From Hirundichthys speculiger (Eukaryota; Chordata; Actinopteri; Beloniformes; Exocoetidae), in NCBI GenBank assembly GCA_018398805.1, contig JAGFBZ010000724.1, positions 1 through 64,000 of the forward strand: DNA of 64,000 nt, given 5' to 3'. The notes below the pieces were generated by a model, which was not told the origin of the DNA, searched no databases, and saw only the letters and a list, made by a program, of their open reading frames with translations. Both the position numbers and the translations under genes were made by a program. Shown piece after piece: positions 31,396 through 61,726 of this stretch; positions within the stretch are counted from its first letter, which is position 1, and each line of letters opens with the position of its first letter.

Positions 31396-32057
31396 CAGTC
31401 CTTCTCAAATAGTGGGGTGTGTCCCCTTGTGTGTGTGTGGGGTGGGGTGGGGGGGGGGTGCATATGACCCCAGGAGGGAACATGTTAACATGATTTTTTT
31501 TTTTTTTTTTTACTGTACTGAAATAAAGTGTAATTGCACCTATATTACAGTAGGGGGCAGTGCCGCTCTCATTGCTCATTGTCAGGGAGTATTAGCTACA
31601 TGGTGTCTGGTTTTTTTTTTTTTGGTTTTTGTTTTTTTTTGACGGACATGCGAGCATGCAGCACACAGCAGGAGATATGAAGTGAACAAACCCTCAAGAG
31701 ACACCACGGAAAAAATATTTACCAAGGATGAAAAAAAAAGGAGGAGAGAGACGGAGATAATGAGACAAACGAAAGTCACCAGGAGGAAATATGACGATGC
31801 TGATGTAGCGCTTAGCTTCACTGTGACTGCGGTGGGATTGATGCACTTTAAATCTTTATGGACTAAAAAACAATTTTAATAAAGTTATTCTTTGTTATAA
31901 GTTGATGTATATTTCTTTCCTTTTTGTTTCTCTTAATGTTAATAGGGATAAAATGTTATGCAGAGGTGGACTTATAACAATTTTATAGACAAATTATACT
32001 ATTTATAGTCACGGTGGAGGGTGGGGGGGCGCAGCAGAAAATAACTGAGAAGCACTT
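31396..32057. mobile_element. hAT non-autonomous transposon, 662 bp
   Basis: Left end CAGTCCTTCTCAAATAGTGG; right end reversed, AAGTGCTTCTCAGTTATTTT. Flanks GGGTATGG (31388-31395) and GGTTAAGG (32058-32065) match at 6 of 8 positions, an aged 8-bp duplication. It is the uninterrupted relative, in opposite orientation, of the element at 47375-53715, and so defines the length of that element before its 5.7-kb gain. Confidence 0.82.
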
Positions 32058-40271: not shown

Positions 40272-41499
40272 CACTTTATTTCCAAAAGTATTTTCTCAAC
40301 CATCTAAATGATCAGATCGGGTGTTCCAGTCACTTCCATGTCCACAGGTGTATAAAATCAAGCACCTAGACATGCAGACTGTTTCTACAAACATTAGTGA
40401 AAGAATGGGTCTCTCTCAGGAGCTCAGTGAATTCCAGCGTGGAACTGTGATAGGATGACACCTGTGAAACAAATCCAGTGGAGAAATTTCCTCTCTCCTA
40501 AATATTCCACAGTCAACTGTCAGCTGGATTATAAGGAAATGGAAGTGTTTGGGAACGACAGCAACTCAGCCATGAAGTGGTAGGACAGGTAAACTGAGGG
40601 GGCGGGGTCAGAGGATGATGAAGAACATAGTGTGAAGAGGTCACTGACTTAATGCAGAGTCAATCACTACAGACCTCCAAACTTCATGTGGCCTTCAGAT
40701 CAGCTCAACAACAGAGCAGAGAGCTTCATGAATGGGTTTCCATGGTGACGCAGCTCCATCCAAGCCAGACATCACCAAGAACAATGGAAAGAGTCAGATG
40801 CAGTGGAGTAAAGCAGCCACCACTGGACTCTAGAGCAGTGGAGGAACGTTCTCTGGAGGGAAGAATCACACTTCTCCATCTGGTAATCTGATGGAAGAGT
40901 CTGGGTTTGGTGGTTTCCAGGAGAACGGTACTGGTCTGACTGCATTGTGCCAAGTGTAAAGTTTGGTGGAGGGTTATGGTGTGGGGTTGTTTTTCAGGCG
41001 CTGGGCTTGGCCCCTTAGTTCCAGTGAAAGGAACTCTGAATGCCTCAGCAGACCAAGACATTTTGGACAATTCCATCCTCCCAACTTTGTGAGACCAGTT
41101 TGGAGCTGGTCCCTTCCTCTTCCAACATGACTGGGCACCAGTGCACAAAGCAAGATCCATAAAGACACGGATGGAAGAGTCTGGTGTGGATGAACTTGAC
41201 TGGCCTGCACTGAGTCCTGACCTCAACCTGATAGAAGACCTTTGGGATGAATTAGAGCAGAGACTGAGAACCAGACCTTCTGGTCCAACATCAGTGTTTG
41301 ACCTCACAAATGTTCTTCTGGAAGAATGGACAAAAATCCCCATAAACACACTCCTAAACCTTGTGGACAGCCTTCCCAGAAGAGTTGAAGCTGTTCTAGC
41401 TGCAAAGGGTGGAGCCACGTCATATTGATTAGGAATGAGATGAACTAAAGCTCATATGTGAGTCAAGGCAGGTGAGAGAATGCTTTTGGCAGTATAGTG
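40272..41499 (+). mobile_element. Tc1-like transposon, second family, 1228 bp
   Basis: Ends CACTTTATTTCCAAAAGTAT and, reversed, CACTATACTGCCAAAAGCAT, a short (about 30 bp) diverged inverted repeat flanked by TA (40270-40271 and 41500-41501). The length of 1.2 kb is near full length for this Tc1 group. A broken plus-strand transposase fills the interior. Confidence 0.92.
40405..41428 (+). pseudogene. Tc1-like transposase, multiply broken
   Basis: The ATG at 40405 reads MGLSQELSEFQRGTVIG before a stop, typical of the N-terminus of one teleost Tc1 group. Several frameshifts follow. At the first catalytic position the usual W-S-D-E is changed (TGGAGGGAAGAA, around 40854), so the Asp is lost. The second Asp (CAACATGAC, Gln-His-Asp, near 41125) and the Glu in DLNLIEDLWDELEQR are retained in the last frame, 41141-41428, which ends normally at TSY. 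It is dead but nearly full length. Confidence 0.88.
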
Positions 41500-41501
41500 T
41501 A

Positions 41502-47271: not shown

Positions 47272-47366
47272 AGCGGCCCGCCACGTCCTTTTATGTGGCC
47301 CCCGAGAGCTTTTGCATTATTGGCTTAAATTTTAAACCAATATTTATTTTAAATTTTAAACCAATG
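47272..47366 (+). repeat. Left flank of the composite hAT: older repeat
   Basis: CGGCCCGCCACGTCC then TTTATGTGGCCCCCGAGAGC resembles a common teleost element; together with the right flank (53724-53966) it may be the transposon into which the 47375-53715 element jumped. TTTTAAACCAAT is repeated in this flank. Confidence 0.35.
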
Positions 47367-47869
47367 TTTTAAACCAGTGCTTCTCAATTATTTTCTGCTG
47401 CAACCCCCCTAGGAAGAAGAAAACATTTCGCGCCCCCCCACCACGACTATAAATAGTATAATTTGTCTATAAAATTATTGTAAGTACACCTCTGGATAAC
47501 AGCTTATCCTTATTAACATTAAGGGAAACAAAAAAAAAGAAATATAGATCAACTTATAATGAAGATTAACTTTATGAAAATAGTTTTTTAGTCTGTAAAG
47601 ATTTAAAGTGCATCAATCCCACTGTAGTCACAGTGAAGCCAAGCGCTACATCAGCATCGTCATATTTCCTCGTCTTAATTTTCTGGTGACTTTCGTTTGT
47701 CTCATTATCTCCGTCTCTCTCCGTCTTTGTTTTCATCCCTGTTAAATATTTTTCCTTCGTGTCTCTTGATCGGTGTCACTTCATATTTCCTGCTCTGTGC
47801 TGCGTGCCCACATGTCCGTGCAAAAAACCTGACACAATATAGCTAATACTCCCTGAACCCACTGTGACA

Positions 47870-50209
47870 ATGAGAGCGCCACTGCCACCTACTGGAGTAT
47901 GTGTGCAATTACACTTTATTCCAGTACGGCAGAAAAACAAAAAAAAAAACATGTTCTATGGGGGATTGACAAACTCACAACCACAAGAGGTCTCTGAGGA
48001 CAAGGAGACCAGTGAAGATGAGGTGGTCCCCAAACCAGGAGAAGTCTCTCTACTGGTGGAGGCCAATGAAACTGAACTGGTCTCCAAACCAGAAGAAGTC
48101 TCTCTACTGGTGGAGGCCAATGAAATTGAACTGGTCTCCAAACCAGAAGAAGTCTCTCAACTGGTGGAGGCCAATGAAACTGAACTGGTCTCCAAACCAG
48201 GAGAAGTCTCTCAACTGGTGGAGGCCAATGAAACTGAACTGGTCTCCAAACCAGGAGAAGTCTCTCAACTGGTGGAGGCCAATGAAACTGAACTGGTCTC
48301 CAAACCAGAAGAAGTCTCTCTACTGGTGGAGGCCAATGAAATTGAACTGGTCTCCAAACCAGAAGAAGTCTCTCAACTGGTGGAGGCCAATGAAACTGAA
48401 CTGGTCTCCAAACCAGAAGAAGTCTCTCAACTGGTGGAGACCAAAGAAATTGAACTGGTCTCCAAACCAATAGAAGTCTCTCAACTGGTGGAGGCCAAAG
48501 AAATTGAACTGGTCTCCAAACCAATAGAAGTCTCTCAACTGGTGGAGGCCAATGAAACTGAACTGGTCTCCAAACCAGAAGAAGTCTCTCAACTGGTGGA
48601 GGCCAATGAAACTGAACTGGTCTCCAAACCAGAAGAAGTCTCTCAACTGGTGGAGGCCAATGAAACTGAACTGGTCTCCAAACCAGGAGAAGTCTCTCTA
48701 CTGGTGGAGGCCAATGAAATTGAACTGGTCTCCAAACCAGTAGAAGTCTCTCAACTGGTGGAGGCCAATGAAATTGAACTGGTCTCCAAACCAGTAGAAG
48801 TCTCTCAACTGGTGGAGGCCAATGAAATTGAACTGGTCTCCAAACCAATAGAAGTCTCTCAACTGGTGGAGGCCAATGAAACTGAACTGGTCTCCAAACC
48901 AGGAGAAGTCTCTCAACTGGTGGAGGCCAATGAAACTGAACTGGTCTCCAAACCAGGAGAAGTCTCTCTACTGGTGGAGGCCAATGAAATTGAACTGGTC
49001 TCCAAACCAGTAGAAGTCTCTCAACTGGTGGAGGCCAATGAAACTGAACTGGTCTCCAAACCAGAAGAAGTCTCTCAACTGGTGGAGACCAAAGAAATTG
49101 AGCTGGTCTCCAAACCAGAAGAAGTCTCTCAATTGGTGGAGGCCAATGAAACTGAACTGGTCTCCAAACCAGAAGAAGTCTCTCAACTGGTGGAGGCCAA
49201 TGAAATTGAACTGGTCTCCAAACCAGTAGAAGTCTCTCAACTGGTGGAGGCCAATGAAATTGAACTGGTCTCCAAACCAGTAGAAGTCTCTCAACTGGTG
49301 GAGGCCAATGAAACTGAACTGGTCTCCAAACCAGAAGAAGTCTCTCAACTGGTAGAGGCCAATGAAATTGAACTGGTCTCCAAACCAGAAGAAGTCTCTC
49401 AACTGGTGGAGACCAAAGAAATTGAACTGGTCTCCAAACCAGAAGAAGTCTCTCAACTGGTGGAGGCCAATGAAACTGAACTGGTCTCCAAACCAGAAGA
49501 AGTCTCTCAACTGGTGGAGGCCAATGAAACTGAACTGGTCTCCAAACCAGGAGAAGTCTCTCTACTGGTGGAGGCCAATGAAATTGAACTGGTCTCCAAA
49601 CCAGTAGAAGTTTCTCAACTGGTGGAGGCCAATGAAATTGAACTGGTCTCCAAACCAGAAGAAGTCTCTCAACTGGTGGAGACCAAAGAAATTGAACTGG
49701 TCTCCAAACCAGAAGAAGTCTCTCAACTGGTGGAGGCCAGTGAAATTGAACTGGTCTCCAAACCAGAAGAAGTCTCTCAACTGGTGGAGATCAATGAAAT
49801 TGAACTGATCAATGAACAGGAAGGACTTCCTCACTGCCAAAGACAAGAGAAGCCTTCTTTTTGGAGGAGAGTCAAGAAATTCATGACCCTATCATGTCTG
49901 CGGCAGAACAAACATGAGAGAAATGAAGATTATTATTTTACTCCTCATGAATTGGCTGAATCAACAGAAGTGTCACCATCAGAAGAAAGTTCTGAGATGG
50001 TGGCTGAAACTGAAGTCTTGGAACCAGAAGAAGACGTCTCTGAACTGGTGGAGGCCAATGAAAAAGAAGTGGTCTCCAAACAGCAAGAAATATCAGAAGA
50101 AAAACCAAAACCAGAGAAGGTTTCCTTGTTGAGGCGCTTTAAGAAATCCATGACGCCATCGTGGAGGCGCCAGTACAAGGACAAGAAGAAGAACCAAGAC
50201 CAGATGTAA
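47870..50209 (+). CDS. Tandem-repeat protein (33 x 18 residues), possible chimeric gene
   Basis: Frame open from 47864; the first ATG is at 47870 (779 aa) and another at 47951 (752 aa), both inside hAT-derived sequence, so the true 5' end may instead be a spliced upstream exon. Numbering from 47864, residues 41-58 are a degenerate repeat, 59-652 are 33 tandem 18-residue units of the form EVSQLVEANETELVSKP plus one variable residue (E, G, V or I), and 653-781 a unique tail. The tail has two basic segments, SFWRRVKKFMTLSCLR (about 665-680) and SLLRRFKKSMTPSWRRQYKD (754-773), with one more degenerate repeat (EDVSELVEANEKEVVSKQ) between. Repeats are acidic and probably helical or disordered; no enzyme domain, signal peptide or membrane segment. 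AATAAA at 50365 fits a 3' UTR of about 160 nt. Function unknown; the conserved tail and intact frame over 33 units favour a real protein, at moderate confidence. Confidence 0.6.
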   Translation: MRAPLPPTGVCVQLHFIPVRQKNKKKNMFYGGLTNSQPQEVSEDKETSEDEVVPKPGEVSLLVEANETELVSKPEEVSLLVEANEIELVSKPEEVSQLVEANETELVSKPGEVSQLVEANETELVSKPGEVSQLVEANETELVSKPEEVSLLVEANEIELVSKPEEVSQLVEANETELVSKPEEVSQLVETKEIELVSKPIEVSQLVEAKEIELVSKPIEVSQLVEANETELVSKPEEVSQLVEANETELVSKPEEVSQLVEANETELVSKPGEVSLLVEANEIELVSKPVEVSQLVEANEIELVSKPVEVSQLVEANEIELVSKPIEVSQLVEANETELVSKPGEVSQLVEANETELVSKPGEVSLLVEANEIELVSKPVEVSQLVEANETELVSKPEEVSQLVETKEIELVSKPEEVSQLVEANETELVSKPEEVSQLVEANEIELVSKPVEVSQLVEANEIELVSKPVEVSQLVEANETELVSKPEEVSQLVEANEIELVSKPEEVSQLVETKEIELVSKPEEVSQLVEANETELVSKPEEVSQLVEANETELVSKPGEVSLLVEANEIELVSKPVEVSQLVEANEIELVSKPEEVSQLVETKEIELVSKPEEVSQLVEASEIELVSKPEEVSQLVEINEIELINEQEGLPHCQRQEKPSFWRRVKKFMTLSCLRQNKHERNEDYYFTPHELAESTEVSPSEESSEMVAETEVLEPEEDVSELVEANEKEVVSKQQEISEEKPKPEKVSLLRRFKKSMTPSWRRQYKDKKKNQDQM
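48038..49819 (+). repeat. 54-bp coding minisatellite, 33 units
   Basis: Unit such as GAAGTCTCTCAACTGGTGGA followed by GGCCAATGAAACTGAACTGG and TCTCCAAACCAG(A/G)A. Units are nearly identical at the DNA level. Variants (Leu/Gln at position 5, ANET/ANEI/TKEI, and the variable residue) recur in the same order in blocks, e.g. units 11-14 equal units 27-30, so multi-unit blocks were duplicated. A length of 54 bp keeps several frames open on both strands; those antisense frames are by-products. Confidence 0.97.
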
Positions 50210-50364
50210 GAAGATAAAAGAAAAGAAAAAACAGGCACCACAGACTCTGTGGTGGTGGGTTTTCTCCAGGTGCTCTGATTTCCCCCACTTGTATGGTTTC
50301 TTCATCAATTTACTCCACTTTTTTTCAACTTTCAGGAGAATTTGAAACACTTGTACCAAATTTG

Positions 50365-50370
50365 AATAAA
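50365..50370 (+). terminator. Polyadenylation signal AATAAA
   Basis: AATAAA about 156 nt after the stop codon of the repeat-protein frame, in TTTGAATAAAGAATTATTAA. It is correctly placed for the 3' end of that transcript. Confidence 0.55.
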
Positions 50371-50467
50371 GAATTATTAAAATACAAACCAAATCTACAT
50401 GTTTTGTATCCAGACTTTTCTCTGAAAGGAACTGTGTTTGTGTCATCCATATGAACATGGATGTTAC

Positions 50468-51515
50468 ATGGAGCTAACATTTCTGTGGTTAGGATGTAGC
50501 TAACTAAGCTTCATTTACAATGCTGCATACTTAGTTGTGGTTAGCATGTGGCTAACTTAGCTTAATTTGCAATGCTGCGTACACAGCTGTGGTTAGCATG
50601 TAGCTAAATTAGCCTCATTTACAATGCTCCATGCTTAGCTGTGGTTAGTATGTGGCTGTTTGCTTCATATACAATGCTGCTGACTCAGCTGTGGTTAGCA
50701 TGTAGCTAAGTTAGCCTCATTTGCAATGCTTCATACTTAGCTGTGGTTAGCATGTAGCTATGTTAGCCTTATTAATAATGCTGAATACTTACCTGTGGTT
50801 AGCATGTAGCTATGGCAGCATTATTAATGAGGCTAACATAGCTACATGCTAACATAGCTGCATACTTAGCTGTGGTTAGCATGTAGCTATGTTAGCCTCA
50901 TTAATAATGCTGCATACTTAGCTGTGGTTAAGATTTGGGTAAGTTAGCCTCATTTACAATGTTGCATATGCAGCTGTGGTTAGCATGTAGCTAAGTTAGC
51001 CTCATTTACAATGCTGCATTCTCAGCTGTGGTTAGCATGTAGCTGAGTTAGCCTCATTTACAATGTTGTTACTCAGCTGTGTTTAGCATGTAGGTAAGTT
51101 AGCCTCATTTACAATGCTGCATACTCAGCTGTGGTTAGCATGTAGCTAAGTTGGCCTCATTCACAATGCTGCATACTCCGCTGTGTTTAGCATGTAGGTA
51201 AGTTAGCCTCATTTACAATGCTGCATACTCAGCTGTGGTTAGTATGTAGCTAAGTTGGCCTCATTCACAATGCTGCATACTCAGCTGTGGTTAGCATGTA
51301 GCTATGTTAGCCTCATTAATAATGCTGCATACTTAGCTGTGGTTAGCATGTGGCTAACTTAGCCTCATTTAGAATGCAGCTTACTCAGCTATGGTTAGCA
51401 ACATGCTAACCATAGCTTACTCAGCTATGATTAGCATGTTGCTAAGTTGGCCTCATTTATAATGCTGCATACTCACTGTGGTAAGCACATAGCTAAGTTA
51501 GCCACATTTACAATG
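50468..51515. repeat. 52-bp noncoding minisatellite, about 20 units, with hairpins
   Basis: Unit about GTGGTTAGCATGTAGCTAAG then TTAGCCTCATTTACAATGCT and GCATACTCAGCT (52 bp). Units vary by substitutions and small indels. Two places contain inverted pieces: 50798-50814 pairs perfectly with 50837-50853 (17-bp stem, 22-nt loop), and 51387-51400 with 51404-51417 (14-bp stem, 3-nt loop). No open frame crosses the array. Confidence 0.93.
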
Positions 51516-51717
51516 CGTTTCAGGCGTTGGCTCACGAATTAATTTGAATGTTGAATTTTGTTCTTGCAGCATTTCAATATTATCTTTTGTAAAAAAAAAA
51601 AAAAAAAAGCTTTTATTCAACATACAACCTGAATTCTGAAAAAGTTGGGATGTCTTTTTTTTTAAATTTGAATAAAATTAAAACTATAGGAATAATAAAT
51701 AAACTCAAAGATAAATG
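51516..51717. repeat. Edge of a teleost DNA element plus poly-A
   Basis: After an A18-type run near 51591-51608, ACAACCTGAATTCTGAAAAA then GTTGGGATGTC and AATTTGAATAAAA resemble the end of a very common fish DNA element. Only this tip is present, cut by the TTAA element. Confidence 0.4.
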
Positions 51718-51936
51718 TTAAAGGAGCAATAAGTGGAAATCCATTATTTAAGACTGAAGGAATTAAAAAATCGCTACATGGAGAACGAGAGGTGTAATTT
51801 CATCTGGAGTATAGGATGACATCACACACCCGCTCTCTGTGTTTATCTCCAGCCTTATGTTTACAAGCCGGTCCGGCCGCGCGTTCATGTGCGTTCATGT
51901 GAAACTCCGCCTCCTCCCTCCTCCCCCCTCCCTCTC

Positions 51937-51943
51937 TATAAAA
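51937..51943 (+). promoter_or_regulatory. TATA box ahead of the 51990 frame
   Basis: TATAAAA in CCTCTCTATAAAATGCGACA, downstream of pyrimidine-rich and CCGCCTCC-type sequence and about 47 bp before the ATG at 51990. Spacing allows a transcription start near 51968 and a very short leader. Confidence 0.5.
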
Positions 51944-51989
51944 TGCGACAGCCAGTGAGTAGTGACGGCGGCAGCATTTTAGAACTCAA

Positions 51990-52208
51990 ATGGCAGACAG
52001 CGGAACAAAACCTTCCAATGAAGACGCGCAGGAGCAGACAAAAAAAAAACGGTCATTGACAAAGAAATGGTCCGATAAAGAAAGAGATAAAACGAGAATT
52101 AACATTGGCCTGGCGTTTCCGAGGTGGAGGGAGCTACGAGAGCTAAAGGGGCTACAGTCGGACTCGGAGCTGGCTCTTCTTCTCCTTGACAGGCAAGTAA
52201 CACCATAA
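51990..52208 (+). CDS. Possible first exon within the TTAA element
   Basis: ATG in AACTCAAATGGCAGAC opens 72 codons: MADSGTKPSNEDAQEQTKKK, then KWSDKERDKTRINIGLAFPR and WRELRELKGLQSDSELALLL. CTTGACAG|GCAAGT at 52191/52192 matches the consensus for a GC-AG splice donor, giving an exon of about 67 codons; otherwise a stop follows at 52206-52208. The Lys/Arg-rich start and F-x-RW-x-L-x-SDSELA-x-LLD pattern resembles N-termini of some teleost transposon-associated proteins with which I cannot pair a function. Confidence 0.45.
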   Translation: MADSGTKPSNEDAQEQTKKKRSLTKKWSDKERDKTRINIGLAFPRWRELRELKGLQSDSELALLLLDRQVTP

Positions 52209-52879
52209 AGTCAAATGTCTGTTTTATTGTCTGTGTTACAGTAACTTTACACACTTGCCGCTATATTGCATGAGTATGTAGCATGGGTTAATGTCCGGAG
52301 CTGGAGTTATTACCGGTAATTTACCGGTAGATTGTATTTGCAGGAAAGCTATTCACTGCCGTCATATTGTTACTAACGTTGAACTGTCTGCTAACGCAAT
52401 TAGCGGCGAATAGATAACGTTTGATGCTAATGGTGACTCACTAAATTAGTGACATAAAGATTAATTTACGGACAAACCAGTATAAACATTATAATGTTAT
52501 AAATGACTCGCCATGGTGATGTTTTGCTCGGTGTAGGTAGATCTTCGAAGCGAGCGGGGGTGTAGTGGGGGAGTGTGTGGAGGGGAGGGGGGGGGGGGGG
52601 GGGGGGGGGGTTGGTGGCGAGCAGAGGCAGAGGGAGGTGTGGCTAATGGCACACTTTGTTTTGGTCTACAGGCAGTGCTCAACAGCAAACCTAGCGGTGA
52701 AATGATTTCGCTTTTTGCTCCTTTAAAATTGAGAAATTCGACACTTTTATGCACAAAATGAGCTCATTTCAAATCAGATGCCTGTTCCAGGTGTAAATAG
52801 TTGGAGAGGGGCATGTTCACCTGGTGGAGCATCTCCACCTCCAGCTCTGGTGGACATTCCTGCACTCAGCGGGTCAGTT

Positions 52880-53200
52880 ACACGCTCCCTCAAAGCCTGC
52901 AGCATCTGTGGCTTTGTGCTGTGATAAAACTAAACATTTCAGAGTGTCTTTTATTGTGGCCAGTCTAAGGCCCGCCTACGCAACGATCCTGCTGTCTAAT
53001 CAGCATCTAGATATGCAACACCTGTGAGGTAGATGGATCATCTTGGTGAAGGAGAAGCGCTCACTAACACACATTTAGACAGATTTGTGAACAATATTTC
53101 AGAGAAATAGGCCTTTGGTGTACATAGAAAAAGTCTTGGATCTTTGAGTTCAGCTCATGAAAAATGGGGCCAAAAACAGTCATGTTGTGTTCATATTTTT
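52880..53200. mobile_element. Fragment of a widespread vertebrate DNA transposon (IS3EU-like?)
   Basis: Contains CTAATCAGCATCTAGATATG, GAGAAGCGCTCACTAACACA and GATCTTTGAGTTCAGCTCAT, phrases from the terminal part of a very widespread vertebrate DNA element. Its outermost terminal repeat is not evident. Class is uncertain. Confidence 0.45.
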
Positions 53201-53319
53201 CTTCAGCTGCTTCCTGAAACCTTCGGGCCAAACCCAGAGCCAGACGCGAGTTTGTTAGTACAATTAACAACCCAACAACCACAAAAAAGGCATATTATCT
53301 TTAAGATGAGAATCATTAT

Positions 53320-53561
53320 ACTCTGTTAGGACAACTGTCTATAGACTCTCATCAGCCACTTCATCAGGTCCACCCTGCTGGTACCAGGTTGGACCCCCAT
53401 CGATCCAACAAGGTCCTGGAAACATTCCTCAGAGAGTTTGGTCCATATTGACATGACAGCATCTCCAGCTGCTGCTCATCCATGATGAGAATTTCCCGTT
53501 CCACCACATCCCAAAGCTGCTCTACTGGACTGAGATCTGGAGACTGTGGAGGACTTTTGAG
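53320..53561 (-). pseudogene. Tc1-like transposase C-terminal fragment
   Basis: Minus-strand frame (53558 down to 53364) reads SPPQSPDLSPVEQLWDVVER, containing the last catalytic Glu, then QYGPNSLRNVSRTLLDRWGS. This is the C-terminal end of a Tc1 group different from those at 22.1 and 40.3 kb. It abuts exactly the duplicated hAT segment at 53563. Confidence 0.78.
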
Positions 53562-53847
53562 TCCACTGCCACCTACTGGAGTATGTGTGCAATTACACTT
53601 TATTCCAGTACGGCAAAAAAAAAAAAAAACATGTTCTCTGGGGTCACACGCGCCCCCCCCTGGCATCGCACAGCCCCCCCCCAAGGGGTCCCACCCCACT
53701 ATTTGAGAAGGACTGTTTTAAACCAATGTTTATTGTCAATGTGCGCTTTAAAGTGCACATTGACAATAAACTACATCTCCCACAATGCCTTTCGGAAGCT
53801 AGTTTCATGAACGATGGGAAAATGAATGCAAGTTTGTATCTCAAGGT

Positions 53848-55977: not shown

Positions 55978-56690
55978 CAGTGGTACCTCTACTTACGAAC
56001 GTCTCTACATACGGAATTTTCAGGTTACGAAACGTCTCAACGGGAAAATATTGCCTCTTGTTACGAAAGAAATTTTAAGGCAAAAATACAGTACGTGCTG
56101 CTACTCGCAGCTCCCAGAGTTTACCGAACGTAAACATACTTGTACGGCTATTCCATTGGCTATCAGCTAGCATCTTCCTGGCATCCCTTTGACATTTTAG
56201 GAAAATTCCATGAAGTTTGGGAATTTGTTGGAAAGAATCACCCAGAAAAAGTGTTCACTAGCGGGCTATCGCTCATTATGATGATGTTTGCCTTGCACAT
56301 TTTCGAAGGATTGTTAAAAGCCGACAAAAGCAAACGTCCTTGGATCTGTTCTTTATAAAACGTCAGGTAACAACCACTGCTGAGAGAGAAAAGGTGACGA
56401 CGATAGCAGTTAAAAGGTAAATGAACATTATTTTTATTCTTTACTTTATTCTTTGTTTTTTATTATGTGGAACTCTCCTTTTATCTTTATTGTGCAGTAA
56501 TCTAATGGTAACATGTATTTGTTACATGTTTTGATGCATTTCTATGATTTATAAAAAAAAATTTTTGTCAGAATTTTGGGGGGTTGGAACGGATTAGAGC
56601 ATTTACATGGACAACGTGTCAATTTACGGAATTTTCAGGTTACGAAACTACTTCCAGAACCAATTAATTTCGTAAATAGAGGTACTACTG
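55978..56690 (+). mobile_element. Tigger/pogo-like element, copy 2
   Basis: Left end CAGTGGTACCTCTACTTACG; right end reversed CAGTAGTACCTCTATTTACG. TA flanks on both sides (55976-55977, 56691-56692); 713 bp. The interior carries the same transposase-tail region as 28981-29184, here FVGKNHPEKVFTSG followed by a frameshift. Confidence 0.85.
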
Positions 56691-56692
56691 TA

Positions 56693-58577
56693 TATAAATA
56701 TTTATATAATATCTTGGCATATTCTCCCATCCAGGCAACTTTTTTTCCCCAGGGAAGGATTTGCATATTTCAGCAAGACAATCTTAAACTGCATGCTTTG
56801 AACTTTGAACCCGCAACGTTTACTAACCAAACATATTTAAAGCGTCACGAAAGGAAAACAGTGTCAAAGACGAGCCAAAACTGGTACAGTTCCCAGACAT
56901 GTGGACCGTTAAAAGAAGAAGAGGCGATGTTACATCATGATAAAAACTTCCCATGTGTTGCTGCCATCAAATTCAAAAGTTGGATTGTTTTTCTGTTTAC
57001 TTATTTCATTCTTTTTAATTTCCATTTTAAAATAGTGTACCAACTTGTTTTCTAATTTTGGTTGCAATAAATCATTTCAAAAACAGGCTTTTCTAATTTT
57101 CTGGGCCAAATCTGTCACACAAGCTATACTTTGCACTCTTGCAAAATCCATAGGAGGATAGCTTAAGAGAACATTGTTATAGTTTGCCAAGGAAACAAAA
57201 AAAGAAAAAAACACTCCTTTTAACTCGCGCTGGGTTTGTTGAGCTTTCGACATTTTCCTTGTGCACGGCAGACAAAATGTTACATGGCATCCAGACTGCG
57301 GATGACAATCATCTTCATCTTATGCAAAAGATGACTCACATTCAAATTCAGGAAAAACTCCTGAGAGCGCCAACTGCTCTGATTCTCCTGACAGGAACTC
57401 ATCAAATCAGTGTTCCCAGCGGAGCAGAGGTGCTTTTATGTTCCTATAGCTCCATGTTTTAGGAAGATTCCATTAGGCGTAGAAAAAGAGGGGGTCTGGA
57501 GGACATCTGGGTGCAGCCAACCTGCTGTGAGAGAAATTAAATGCACCTTCGTCAGGAAATCAATACTCCACTGGGTGGAGATGATGGAGGTTGTCAGGGT
57601 TAGAAAAAGTGTCCGTCTCTAATGACGTCCTCAGAGCTCCCTTTCTACTTCTGTTAACTTTAAATGTTCATTGGTTAAATCTGTTCCACCTCTGACTGAT
57701 CTATGATCAATTAATTAATGAGTTGGGTTTTTTTTTTTTTTCATGAGCTAACACATTTATTGATTGTCCCTAGGAGGGGGAAAAAGGTTTGACTAAATGT
57801 GTAGTAATGAAGGAGATGTTCTCGTGCAGCCTGCAGGTTTTCCATCATGAGTTTTCTTTTCACGCCCCTCTTCAATCCATTCTGAAGAGGATTTAAAAAT
57901 GTCAGGCCATTCTGGACCGCTGGCGCACTTCCTCACTGGAAATACTACAGTGGATAGTTTCTTTTTTTATTCTATGCATAATCATAAAAACTCTACACCT
58001 TAAATGACATCAAACAACAGCTGACATTAAAACACACCGAAGATGCAGCCTGATTTTAAAAAGTGGACAAAATGGCTCATTTGTCATAAAAAGGTGCAAA
58101 AACTCAGCGTGAAAAAAAAAAAAATCACCAGTTTCTTTCCATCAAGTCAGAGCGGTTATGCAACACGGCCTCTGAGCGACATTGCAGATAATCAGGATGC
58201 CCTGACTGTGGAAGAACAAGGACAAAACAAAAAAAGAAACAGGCAATAATAGAGGAAGTCCAAAAAGGCTGCAATGACAGAGAAACTGAATGCAATAAAC
58301 AATAAAACACCACTTTCTCATGAACCAATTAAACGATCTACAGAGTCAGAGGAATTAAAAATTATAAAATTAAAGATAAATTAGAAATATCTCCTTGATT
58401 ATATTCAAGTTTTAGATGATTCCATGTTACTTGACGCAAATAGGAGCAGAAAATAACAGTTTGCATGTCAAAAACATGACCAGCGTGCTTCACATTAGGG
58501 GTGTGTGTTTATCCCTTATAAGACAATATGATGTTTACAGATACATGAGGCATGAAGCAAAGCAGATCAATTTGATC
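56693..58577. other. No gene seen
   Basis: Open frame 56576-57055 begins inside the preceding element and has no recognised domain. The rest is AT-rich, with a T run near 57729-57741. Confidence 0.45.
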
Positions 58578-61163: not shown

Positions 61164-61726
61164 CAGTGGTACCTCTACTTACAAACGTCTCTACATACGA
61201 AATTTTCAGGTTACGAAACGCCTCAACGGGAAAATATTGCCTCTTATTATTTAAGAAATTTCAGGATACAAAAGGCAAAAATACAGTACGCGCTGCTACT
61301 CGCAGCTCCCAGAGTTTACCGAACGTAAACATACTTGTTGGCTCTGTATTATAGTTTGAAAGCGGTGCGTCCGAGCTGCTCTAGCATTGGCTATCGCTTA
61401 GCATCTTTCTGGCATCCCATTGGCTAGGAGGGCCCCTTGTCTGTATGAGCGTAACCTAGCAACCCAGGTAAACGAACAATTTTCACCAAATTCTGGATCA
61501 ATTTTTAAATTTTCGATAATTGTTGCGCTTGGTGGAGGTCTGCGCTCTCTGAGTGCTTTTCCAGTTCTAACATGTATTTCTTATAATTTATTTAAAAAAA
61601 AAATTATGTTCGAATTTTGGGGGCATTTTAATAGGGCATATTAGGGCATTTACATGGAAAACACATCTCTACTTACGAAATTTTCAGGTTACGAAACTAC
61701 TTCCAGAACCAATTAATTTTGCACTG
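61164..61726 (+). mobile_element. Tigger/pogo-like element, copy 3, with repeat inserted
   Basis: Left end CAGTGGTACCTCTACTTACA; the right end is AATTAATTTTGCACTG (reversed CAGTGCAAAATTAATTGG), followed by TA. 563 bp. Its middle is partly replaced by sequence including a shortened Helitron-like repeat (61491-61570); the transposase-tail region is absent. Confidence 0.78.
61491..61570 (+). mobile_element. Helitron-like repeat, copy 3, internally deleted
   Basis: Retains CTGGATCA...TTTTCGATAA and the 3' end GGTGGAGGTCTGCGCTCTCT then GAGTGCTTTTCCAGTT, matching the 3' part of 7828-8244. Confidence 0.65.

Follow-up and report, generated by a model that had tools for sequence, protein, structure and literature searches.

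Filler DNA between hAT ends is known from plant Ds elements, where it is left by abortive gap repair, that is, by repair that is interrupted after excision. In animals, host sequence within TIR transposons is the subject of the Pack-TIR survey by Tan et al. (2021, PMC8277862), which counts 370 cases, 208 of them hAT, and only four that are multicopy; a hAT case from a frog carries 291 bp of 5'UTR. That survey sought inserts of 100–5,000 bp and tried 10,000 bp in humans only; the largest human case measures 3,585 bp, and the two breakpoints lie a median of 4.6% of the element apart. The window analysed here is the whole 64,000-nucleotide stretch of Hirundichthys speculiger DNA. Its element at 47375–53715 is very probably a member of a multicopy, gene-carrying, non-autonomous hAT family (Pack-hAT) that moved as a unit. 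Searches of open-access papers listed no description of this element.

The underlying short hAT family is about 670 bp long and present in high copy number in the source genome (40 scored matches among 2,776 first-look candidates). Shared short terminal inverted repeats and 8-bp target-site duplications place it in the hAT superfamily as a non-autonomous family. The sequence CAGTGCTTCTCAA opens the window element, five complete chimeras described below and 22 of 26 fetched short copies. The duplications of these 26 copies match at 8/8 positions in 10, at 7/8 in four and at fewer in 12, most of which have a right end that was mis-set or lost. The window element and the ten short copies with 8/8 duplications have TA at duplication positions 4–5 in common.

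The earlier note had assigned hAT terminal repeats and an identical 8-bp duplication to both outer ends, and both are present. CAGTGCTTCTCAA stands at 47375 and its imperfect complement ends at 53715; TTTTAAAC occupies 47367–47374 and, with an 8/8 match, 53716–53723. Further copies of TTTTAAAC at 47330 and 47354 form a local repeat to the left, and removing the element together with one TTTTAAAC leaves an uninterrupted run of this repeat. Exact 8-mer matches between the two 500-bp flanks occur at a rate of 1.2e-4. The left hAT part (47375–47963, plus strand) starts with CAGTGCTTCTC and covers family positions 1 to about 590; the right part (53563–53715, plus strand) runs from about position 505 to the end and repeats 85 bp of the left part. 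The relative at 31396–32057 (minus strand), said to equal the two outer parts joined, indeed aligns over its full length. It is an older copy without cargo, 82% identical in the main aligned piece, for which an exact 8-bp duplication was not seen by eye. As a yardstick of family divergence this value is misleading, because other family copies are much closer.

The duplicated hAT sequence bounding the cargo is likewise real, with 85 bp at 94% identity. Apart from gaps around a poly-A run, BLAST gave a single mismatch, and after realignment 4 of 80 sites differ. A majority sequence built from 16 other copies of the family matches each duplicated piece equally well, so their likeness is not evidence for one parent hAT copy. 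We rejected their near-identity as proof of a single parent on the same ground, the whole family being alike in this region. The proposed cargo of about 5.7 kb needs two corrections: 5.6 kb do lie between the hAT parts, but 1,001 bp of these are a later insertion, and the window copy lacks about 1.3 kb that belonged to the original cargo side.

A chimeric open frame of 752 codons (47951–50209, plus strand) starts at an ATG in hAT sequence and continues as the 3' part of a dispersed gene. Homology to other gene copies begins at 47970, after about 6 bp at the deletion joint (47964–47969, plus strand) that match neither hAT nor those copies. Ten loci were viewed, and all seven gene copies readable at the frame start continue upstream as gene, not as hAT. 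The window copy is an internally deleted descendant and not the original capture, and the frame it carries is what remains, on the 3' side, of a longer one. The frame contains 33 in-frame 54-bp repeats of 18 amino acids, KPEEVSQLVEANEIELVS-like (48032–49813, plus strand). On contig C2475, which holds a twin of the element, five units were counted by eye in translation; the frame is unbroken at both lengths. An AATAAA (50365–50370, plus strand), read by eye, lies 3' of the stop codon. The 52-bp minisatellite downstream (50483–51516) also occurs near gene copies without hAT (C775 and C934). The 1,001-bp element (51722–52722) has inverted ends (arms 51714–51738 and 52706–52730) and TTAA on both sides. 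It landed after capture: the twin has an empty site with a single TTAA, and six other copies (L048–L053) are contiguous there. Finally, a Tc1-like transposase relic (53364–53562, minus strand) is cut at the right joint. Its DDE_3 match has an E value of 0.0026, below the Pfam cut-off, and its match to Sleeping Beauty an E value of 0.14.

Protein searches returned P0001, P0006 and P0007, three anonymous proteins related to the gene. Pfam gave no family for it beyond one repeat-driven and one non-significant match, and pattern scans of viral and bacterial collections gave no match. The frame is open in C1350, C914, the window and C2475, and broken in C955, C1932, C990, C19 and C2475b. The 33 repeats show 17 distinct changes, of which 5 are silent where 25% would be expected to be. 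Nine copies were compared over the C-terminal 396 bp, namely eight that have hAT parts and C2475b, whose frame is disturbed in this region; two distinct silent changes stand here against 32 non-silent ones (P 0.005 with a simple expectation weighted for transitions). The four open-frame copies give 1 silent and 15 changing (P 0.07), and the set with two hAT-free copies added gives 9 and 43 (P 0.15). Coding constraint was therefore rejected as a reading of these counts, neither the repeat nor the C-terminal substitutions carrying a purifying signal. The excess of amino-acid-changing C-terminal sites is only a hint. Between window and twin, 2 of 393 C-terminal sites differ as against 3.77% overall, but 28 of 709 windows of the same size are equally low. 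It is rather doubtful that these copies represent an active gene shuttle in a vertebrate, in which a hAT element would spread a complete, putatively expressed gene with in-frame repeat-length changes and mostly amino-acid-changing C-terminal substitutions, the window copy being a new fusion gene read from the hAT ATG.

The earlier note had called for other 6-kb copies with different 8-bp duplications, and five full-size chimeras of 5.4–6.3 kb were found with both ends and their own duplications, four at 8/8 and one at 7/8. These are C955 (5,412 bp, GTTTAAAG/GTTTAAAG), C1932 (5,762 bp, GTTTAACA/GTTTAACA), C990 (5,421 bp, GTCTAATG/GTCTAATG), C1350 (5,853 bp, GTCTAGTA/GTCTAGTA) and C19 (6,272 bp, GTCTAAAT/GTCTAATT, 7/8). 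Together with the window element, they occupy six distinct insertion sites. The twin on C2475 is 3.8% divergent and has the hAT ends, the cargo and TTTTAAAC/TTTTAAAC all as in the window. It is the only homologous contig found; no example of the cargo lacking hAT ends turned up at this place.

The joints of the chimeras recur across the genome. Among the 40 best-scored candidates for each joint, which makes the counts lower bounds, the right-joint query (616 bp) is intact at at least seven places and the left-joint query (651 bp) at at least five. In the right-joint query, hAT copies begin at 464–465. Six hAT-free places (C123, C2245, C835, C934, C2559 and C585) end at 469, at most 6 bp from the joint, and two end earlier (C2587 at 425 and C1350:2800105 at 289). 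In the left-joint query, hAT copies end at 141–155, and the hAT-free gene loci C934, C2559, C835 and C1350:2795546 begin at 156; others begin further in. The bases shared at the right joint are CCA with C934 and C123 and CA with C835. At the left joint, where microhomology was compared against the window's own right hAT part, they amount to AC at most, plus a small irregular duplication. The hAT overlap at the joints is about 115–120 bp in full-size copies and 85 bp in the window.

A locus with the cargo but without hAT was also found. C934:147694–153366 spans the cargo unit from one boundary to the other (5,673 bp); no hAT match occurs in 7.9 kb, and beyond each joint its sequence is unlike hAT. 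C123 and C835 likewise continue through the right joint. C2587 (7.4 kb) and C775 (6.8 kb) also gave no hAT match. Host-derived sequence stands between two parts of one TIR element, and donor-type copies without a flanking transposon exist (C934, C2587 and C775). The hAT-free copies that were checked are not intact: the C934 gene lies in two frames and C2587 is without the N-terminal side. Chimeras differ from one another by 1.7–3.1% and from C934 and C2587 by 6.6–7.8%, and the three hAT-free loci cluster in the tree with a support of 0.96. A gene copy without hAT ends at C2475:32.2–36 kb is 3.8–4.8% from the five chimeras and thus nearer than C934; it could represent either the donor side or a chimera that has decayed. 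This copy aside, a donor closer than C934 was not identified in the source genome. For Pack-TIRs, a donor is defined as a unique best one at 90% or more.

C914 has an interrupted left hAT part and no right end within the stretch read. In the tree it is nearest to the hAT-free loci (support 0.97). These features of C914 tell against the main explanation, as do the nearer C2475 copy, the lack of a closer donor and the broken state of the hAT-free copies.

Capture of a gene by a short non-autonomous hAT, as first proposed, is supported by the same joints being found at several loci with their own duplications, and by the hAT-free cargo locus. From the recurring joints and the C934 unit it therefore follows that a host unit of about 5.67 kb entered a hAT element of about 670 bp, which then transposed whole. 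We propose that repair of a break inside one hAT copy could have copied hAT sequence from either side until the two tracts ran past one another, which would leave the overlap of about 115–120 bp. Repair would then have switched at 2–3-bp microhomologies into the gene unit, which served as filler. We infer template switching because it fits both the short microhomologies and the overlap; insertion of a fragment into a staggered break by end-joining would give an outcome much like that of gap repair. Transposase from another hAT element may have moved the entire 5.4–6.3-kb unit to at least six sites. The copy from which both the window element and its twin descend would have lost about 1.3 kb, reaching from within the left hAT part to coding sequence, and the hAT ATG therefore now opens the remaining frame. 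The TTAA-type element would then have inserted in the window copy.

Fusion of two nearby hAT copies, the other capture route that had been suggested, may also apply. The likeness of the duplicated pieces is compatible with two copies, but fusion would not lead one to expect inner ends cut at microhomologies. Composite transposition is unlikely. In that scenario the gene once lay between two complete hAT copies whose outer ends carried the entire segment to a new place, and the inner ends were lost later. The hAT pieces, which overlap by 85–120 bp, resemble each other no more closely than other family members do, so they need not derive from one copy. However, none of the five complete chimeras has inner hAT ends, as two complete elements would. 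Moreover, each joint falls within hAT sequence, with a short microhomology to the host unit at the right one, and two extra deletions would be needed before the first jump.

It is very improbable that the cargo gene is native to the hAT family, as part of a large autonomous or helper element of which the short copies are deletions, even though the long frame of the chimera is open in some copies. The Pfam scan, which covered the window's 3' part of the gene and its homologue P0001, gave no transposase match. The gene is also present at loci without hAT, the right joint cuts Tc1-like sequence that continues in C934, C123 and C835, and overlapping hAT pieces are not expected from simple deletion. 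The local repetition of TTTTAAAC makes a chance match easier here than elsewhere, as would be needed if gene and flank were ancestral at this site and separate truncated hAT insertions mimicked one element, but the recurrence of both joints at five further places, each with its own matched duplication, leaves this reading almost no standing. An assembly artefact that wrongly joined repeats can be set aside with near certainty, both joints lying in repeats but recurring in independent contigs, with the same structure on the 3.8%-divergent twin contig.

Capture by a hAT element followed by transposition makes this a Pack-hAT, which is a known kind of element among the Pack-TIRs; what is unusual is the large gene-bearing cargo. 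One genome holds the stages, namely the short hAT, the hAT-free unit, chimera joints resolved to the base, jumped copies with their own duplications and a later deletion derivative. Together they make it possible to test directly, in a vertebrate, whether capture preceded transposition. At 5,673 bp, the C934 unit falls outside the insert range of 100–5,000 bp, which was a limit of the search as described in the survey and not of the mechanism (PMC8277862). Because that survey looked above 5 kb in humans only, the present case suggests that size limits may have hidden larger captures elsewhere.

Like plant Ds elements, this family has filler DNA between hAT ends, although the hAT element here may have broken without excision. 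With the animal Pack-TIRs, as the survey characterizes them, it shares host sequence within one TIR transposon, target duplications, breakpoint microhomology and transposon-free donor copies; it differs from the surveyed cases in its unit of about 5.67 kb, its long gene-like frame, its multiple copies and the hAT sequence duplicated at the joints (PMC8277862). Ssk-FB4 of Drosophila, as presented there, is a similar case of a near-complete gene captured and found at several sites with different duplications. It belongs to another transposon type, and expression, protein and selection were examined there, whereas the present case has simple substitution counts only (PMC8277862). The hAT element of Pseudocercospora and relatives also captured and multiplied a host gene, histone H3; by the account used here, that element is fungal, occurs in hundreds of copies and is inactivated by RIP, whereas the family described here has few copies, resides in a fish and retains some open frames (PMC6710886).

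The element in the window is a hAT transposon that carries a gene-bearing host cargo. We confirmed the hAT ends described in the earlier note, at 47375 and 53715, its target duplication, present as a pair of TTTTAAAC on both flanks, and its internal hAT duplication, which measures 85 bp. The local repeat is clean again once the element and one TTTTAAAC are removed, and 8-mer matches between the two 500-bp flanks occur at a rate of 1.2e-4. A near-perfect palindrome with 22-nt arms (53728-53771) lies directly right of the insertion site. The hAT family is high-copy in the source genome (G000; 1.04 Gb, 3,002 contigs), with 2,776 first-look candidates, 40 of which were scored. Sixteen of 26 fetched short copies were taken as complete (663-686 bp); the other ten, with a right end that was either missing or wrongly placed, were left out. 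Target duplications match at 8/8 positions in 10 of the 26 copies and at 7/8 in four. All ten 8/8 duplications contain TA at positions 4-5, a pattern with which TTTTAAAC agrees.

The cargo is not confined to the window. Bases 1-642 or more of a 683-bp gene-end query were covered at 18 other places among 40 scored candidates (85-98% identity). Ten gene loci were fetched, including the window and its twin on contig C2475; the stretch fetched for C19 stopped short of the position that corresponds to the window's left joint, where the cargo meets the left hAT part. At all seven other readable loci, the gene continues upstream past this joint and not into hAT. On C955, the same right joint as in the window is followed by GTTTAAAG, and 5.4 kb upstream of this joint GTTTAAAG recurs, followed by a hAT left end. 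C1932, C990, C1350, and C19 are arranged likewise, each with its own duplication (7/8 in C19). Hence, the copies with different duplications that the earlier note had suggested looking for do exist. On C914, the left hAT part is interrupted, and the stretch read contains no right end.

The joints bear on how the cargo was acquired. A 616-bp query across the right joint matched over its full length at 7 of the 40 places scored, namely the window, C2475, and the five complete chimeras (C955, C1932, C990, C1350, and C19). Matches stop at base 469 in six hAT-free places (C123, C2245, C835, C934, C2559, and C585) and earlier at C2587 (425) and C1350:2800105 (289), while those of hAT copies start at 464-465. 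A 651-bp left-joint query was whole at 5 of 40 scored places, the five chimeras; here, matches of hAT copies stop at 141-155, and those of the hAT-free gene loci C934, C2559, C835, and C1350:2795546 start at 156, others further in. Bases in common at the right joint are CCA with C934 and C123, and CA with C835; at the left joint they are AC at most, in a comparison obscured by a small irregular duplication. C934 is the kind of locus that the earlier note had named as a check, with a 5,673-bp cargo unit and no hAT match within 7.9 kb. Since a Tc1-like sequence that is cut at the right joint continues in C934, C123, and C835, the direction of transfer was from host to hAT. The gene family is dispersed (C934 is locus L069, C2587 locus L068). 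At C934, Tc1-like flanks stand on either side of the gene, as if the units had once been tandem.

Distances on concatenated unique segments are 1.7-3.1% among the five complete chimeras, 3.1-4.1% between these and the window, 1.9% between the window and C2475, and 6.6-7.8% between the chimeras and hAT-free C934 and C2587. C934, C2587, and C775 group with a support of 0.96, and C914 joins at 0.97. C724, the window's contig, and C2475 are colinear for more than 90 kb (window 1-64000 against about 43,800-100,000), share hAT ends, target duplication, and cargo, and are the only long matches to a 1-kb window flank among 10 scored. Their divergence is 3.77% (2,888 differences in 76,701 sites of aligned blocks longer than 300 bp and above 90%); insertion/deletion differences are numerous. 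The twin may be either the second haplotype or a duplication. About 50 kb from it, C2475:32200-36000 holds a gene copy without hAT ends, 3.8-4.8% from the five chimeras, which may be a decayed chimera or lie near the donor.

The window holds a derived copy, in which 13 bp stand in place of the about 1.3 kb that C1350 has between hAT CATGTTC and coding CAAACTC. In C1350, an uninterrupted frame spans 839 codons, or 828 when counted from the first ATG, the inferred start, and the N-terminal part of the full gene resembles that of an anonymous homologue, P0001. The window frame retains only the C-terminal side; its 752 codons begin at an ATG in hAT sequence and include a coding array of 33 54-bp units (48032-49813). 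The array of the C2475 copy has five units, with the frame kept and open. The window copy may be a working fusion gene. Frames are open in four of nine copies examined and broken in five. Among hAT-free copies, those read are defective as well: the C934 gene lies in two frames, and C2587 lacks the N-terminal side. Open frames in C1350, C914, and the homologue P0001 suggest that the donor may have been a working host gene. Most changes among gene copies alter amino acids and therefore provide nothing in favor of constraint. The simplest view is that the gene is a passenger multiplied by the transposon.

Other repeats surround or interrupt the element. A TTAA-flanked, 1,001-bp element with inverted ends (51722-52722) contains an exon-like frame (51993-52205) and is matched by four anonymous proteins (P0002-P0005, best 96% identical); C2475 has a single TTAA at this position. 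By eye, Tc1-like transposon sequence occupies 40280-41500, and two related stretches (55980-56700 and 61165-61720), both starting with GTGGTACCTCTACTTACRAACGTCTCTACATACG, are apparently copies of one repeat.

By the definition of Tan et al. (PMC8277862), the window element counts as a hAT-type Pack-TIR. Their survey lists 370 Pack-TIRs, 208 of them hAT and four multicopy, with an insert limit of 5 kb apart from a human trial. In fungi, histone H3 has been multiplied by a hAT element (PMC6710886). Pack-TIRs of hAT type are already known, and the present element adds to them one whose cargo is unusually large, gene-bearing, and multicopy.
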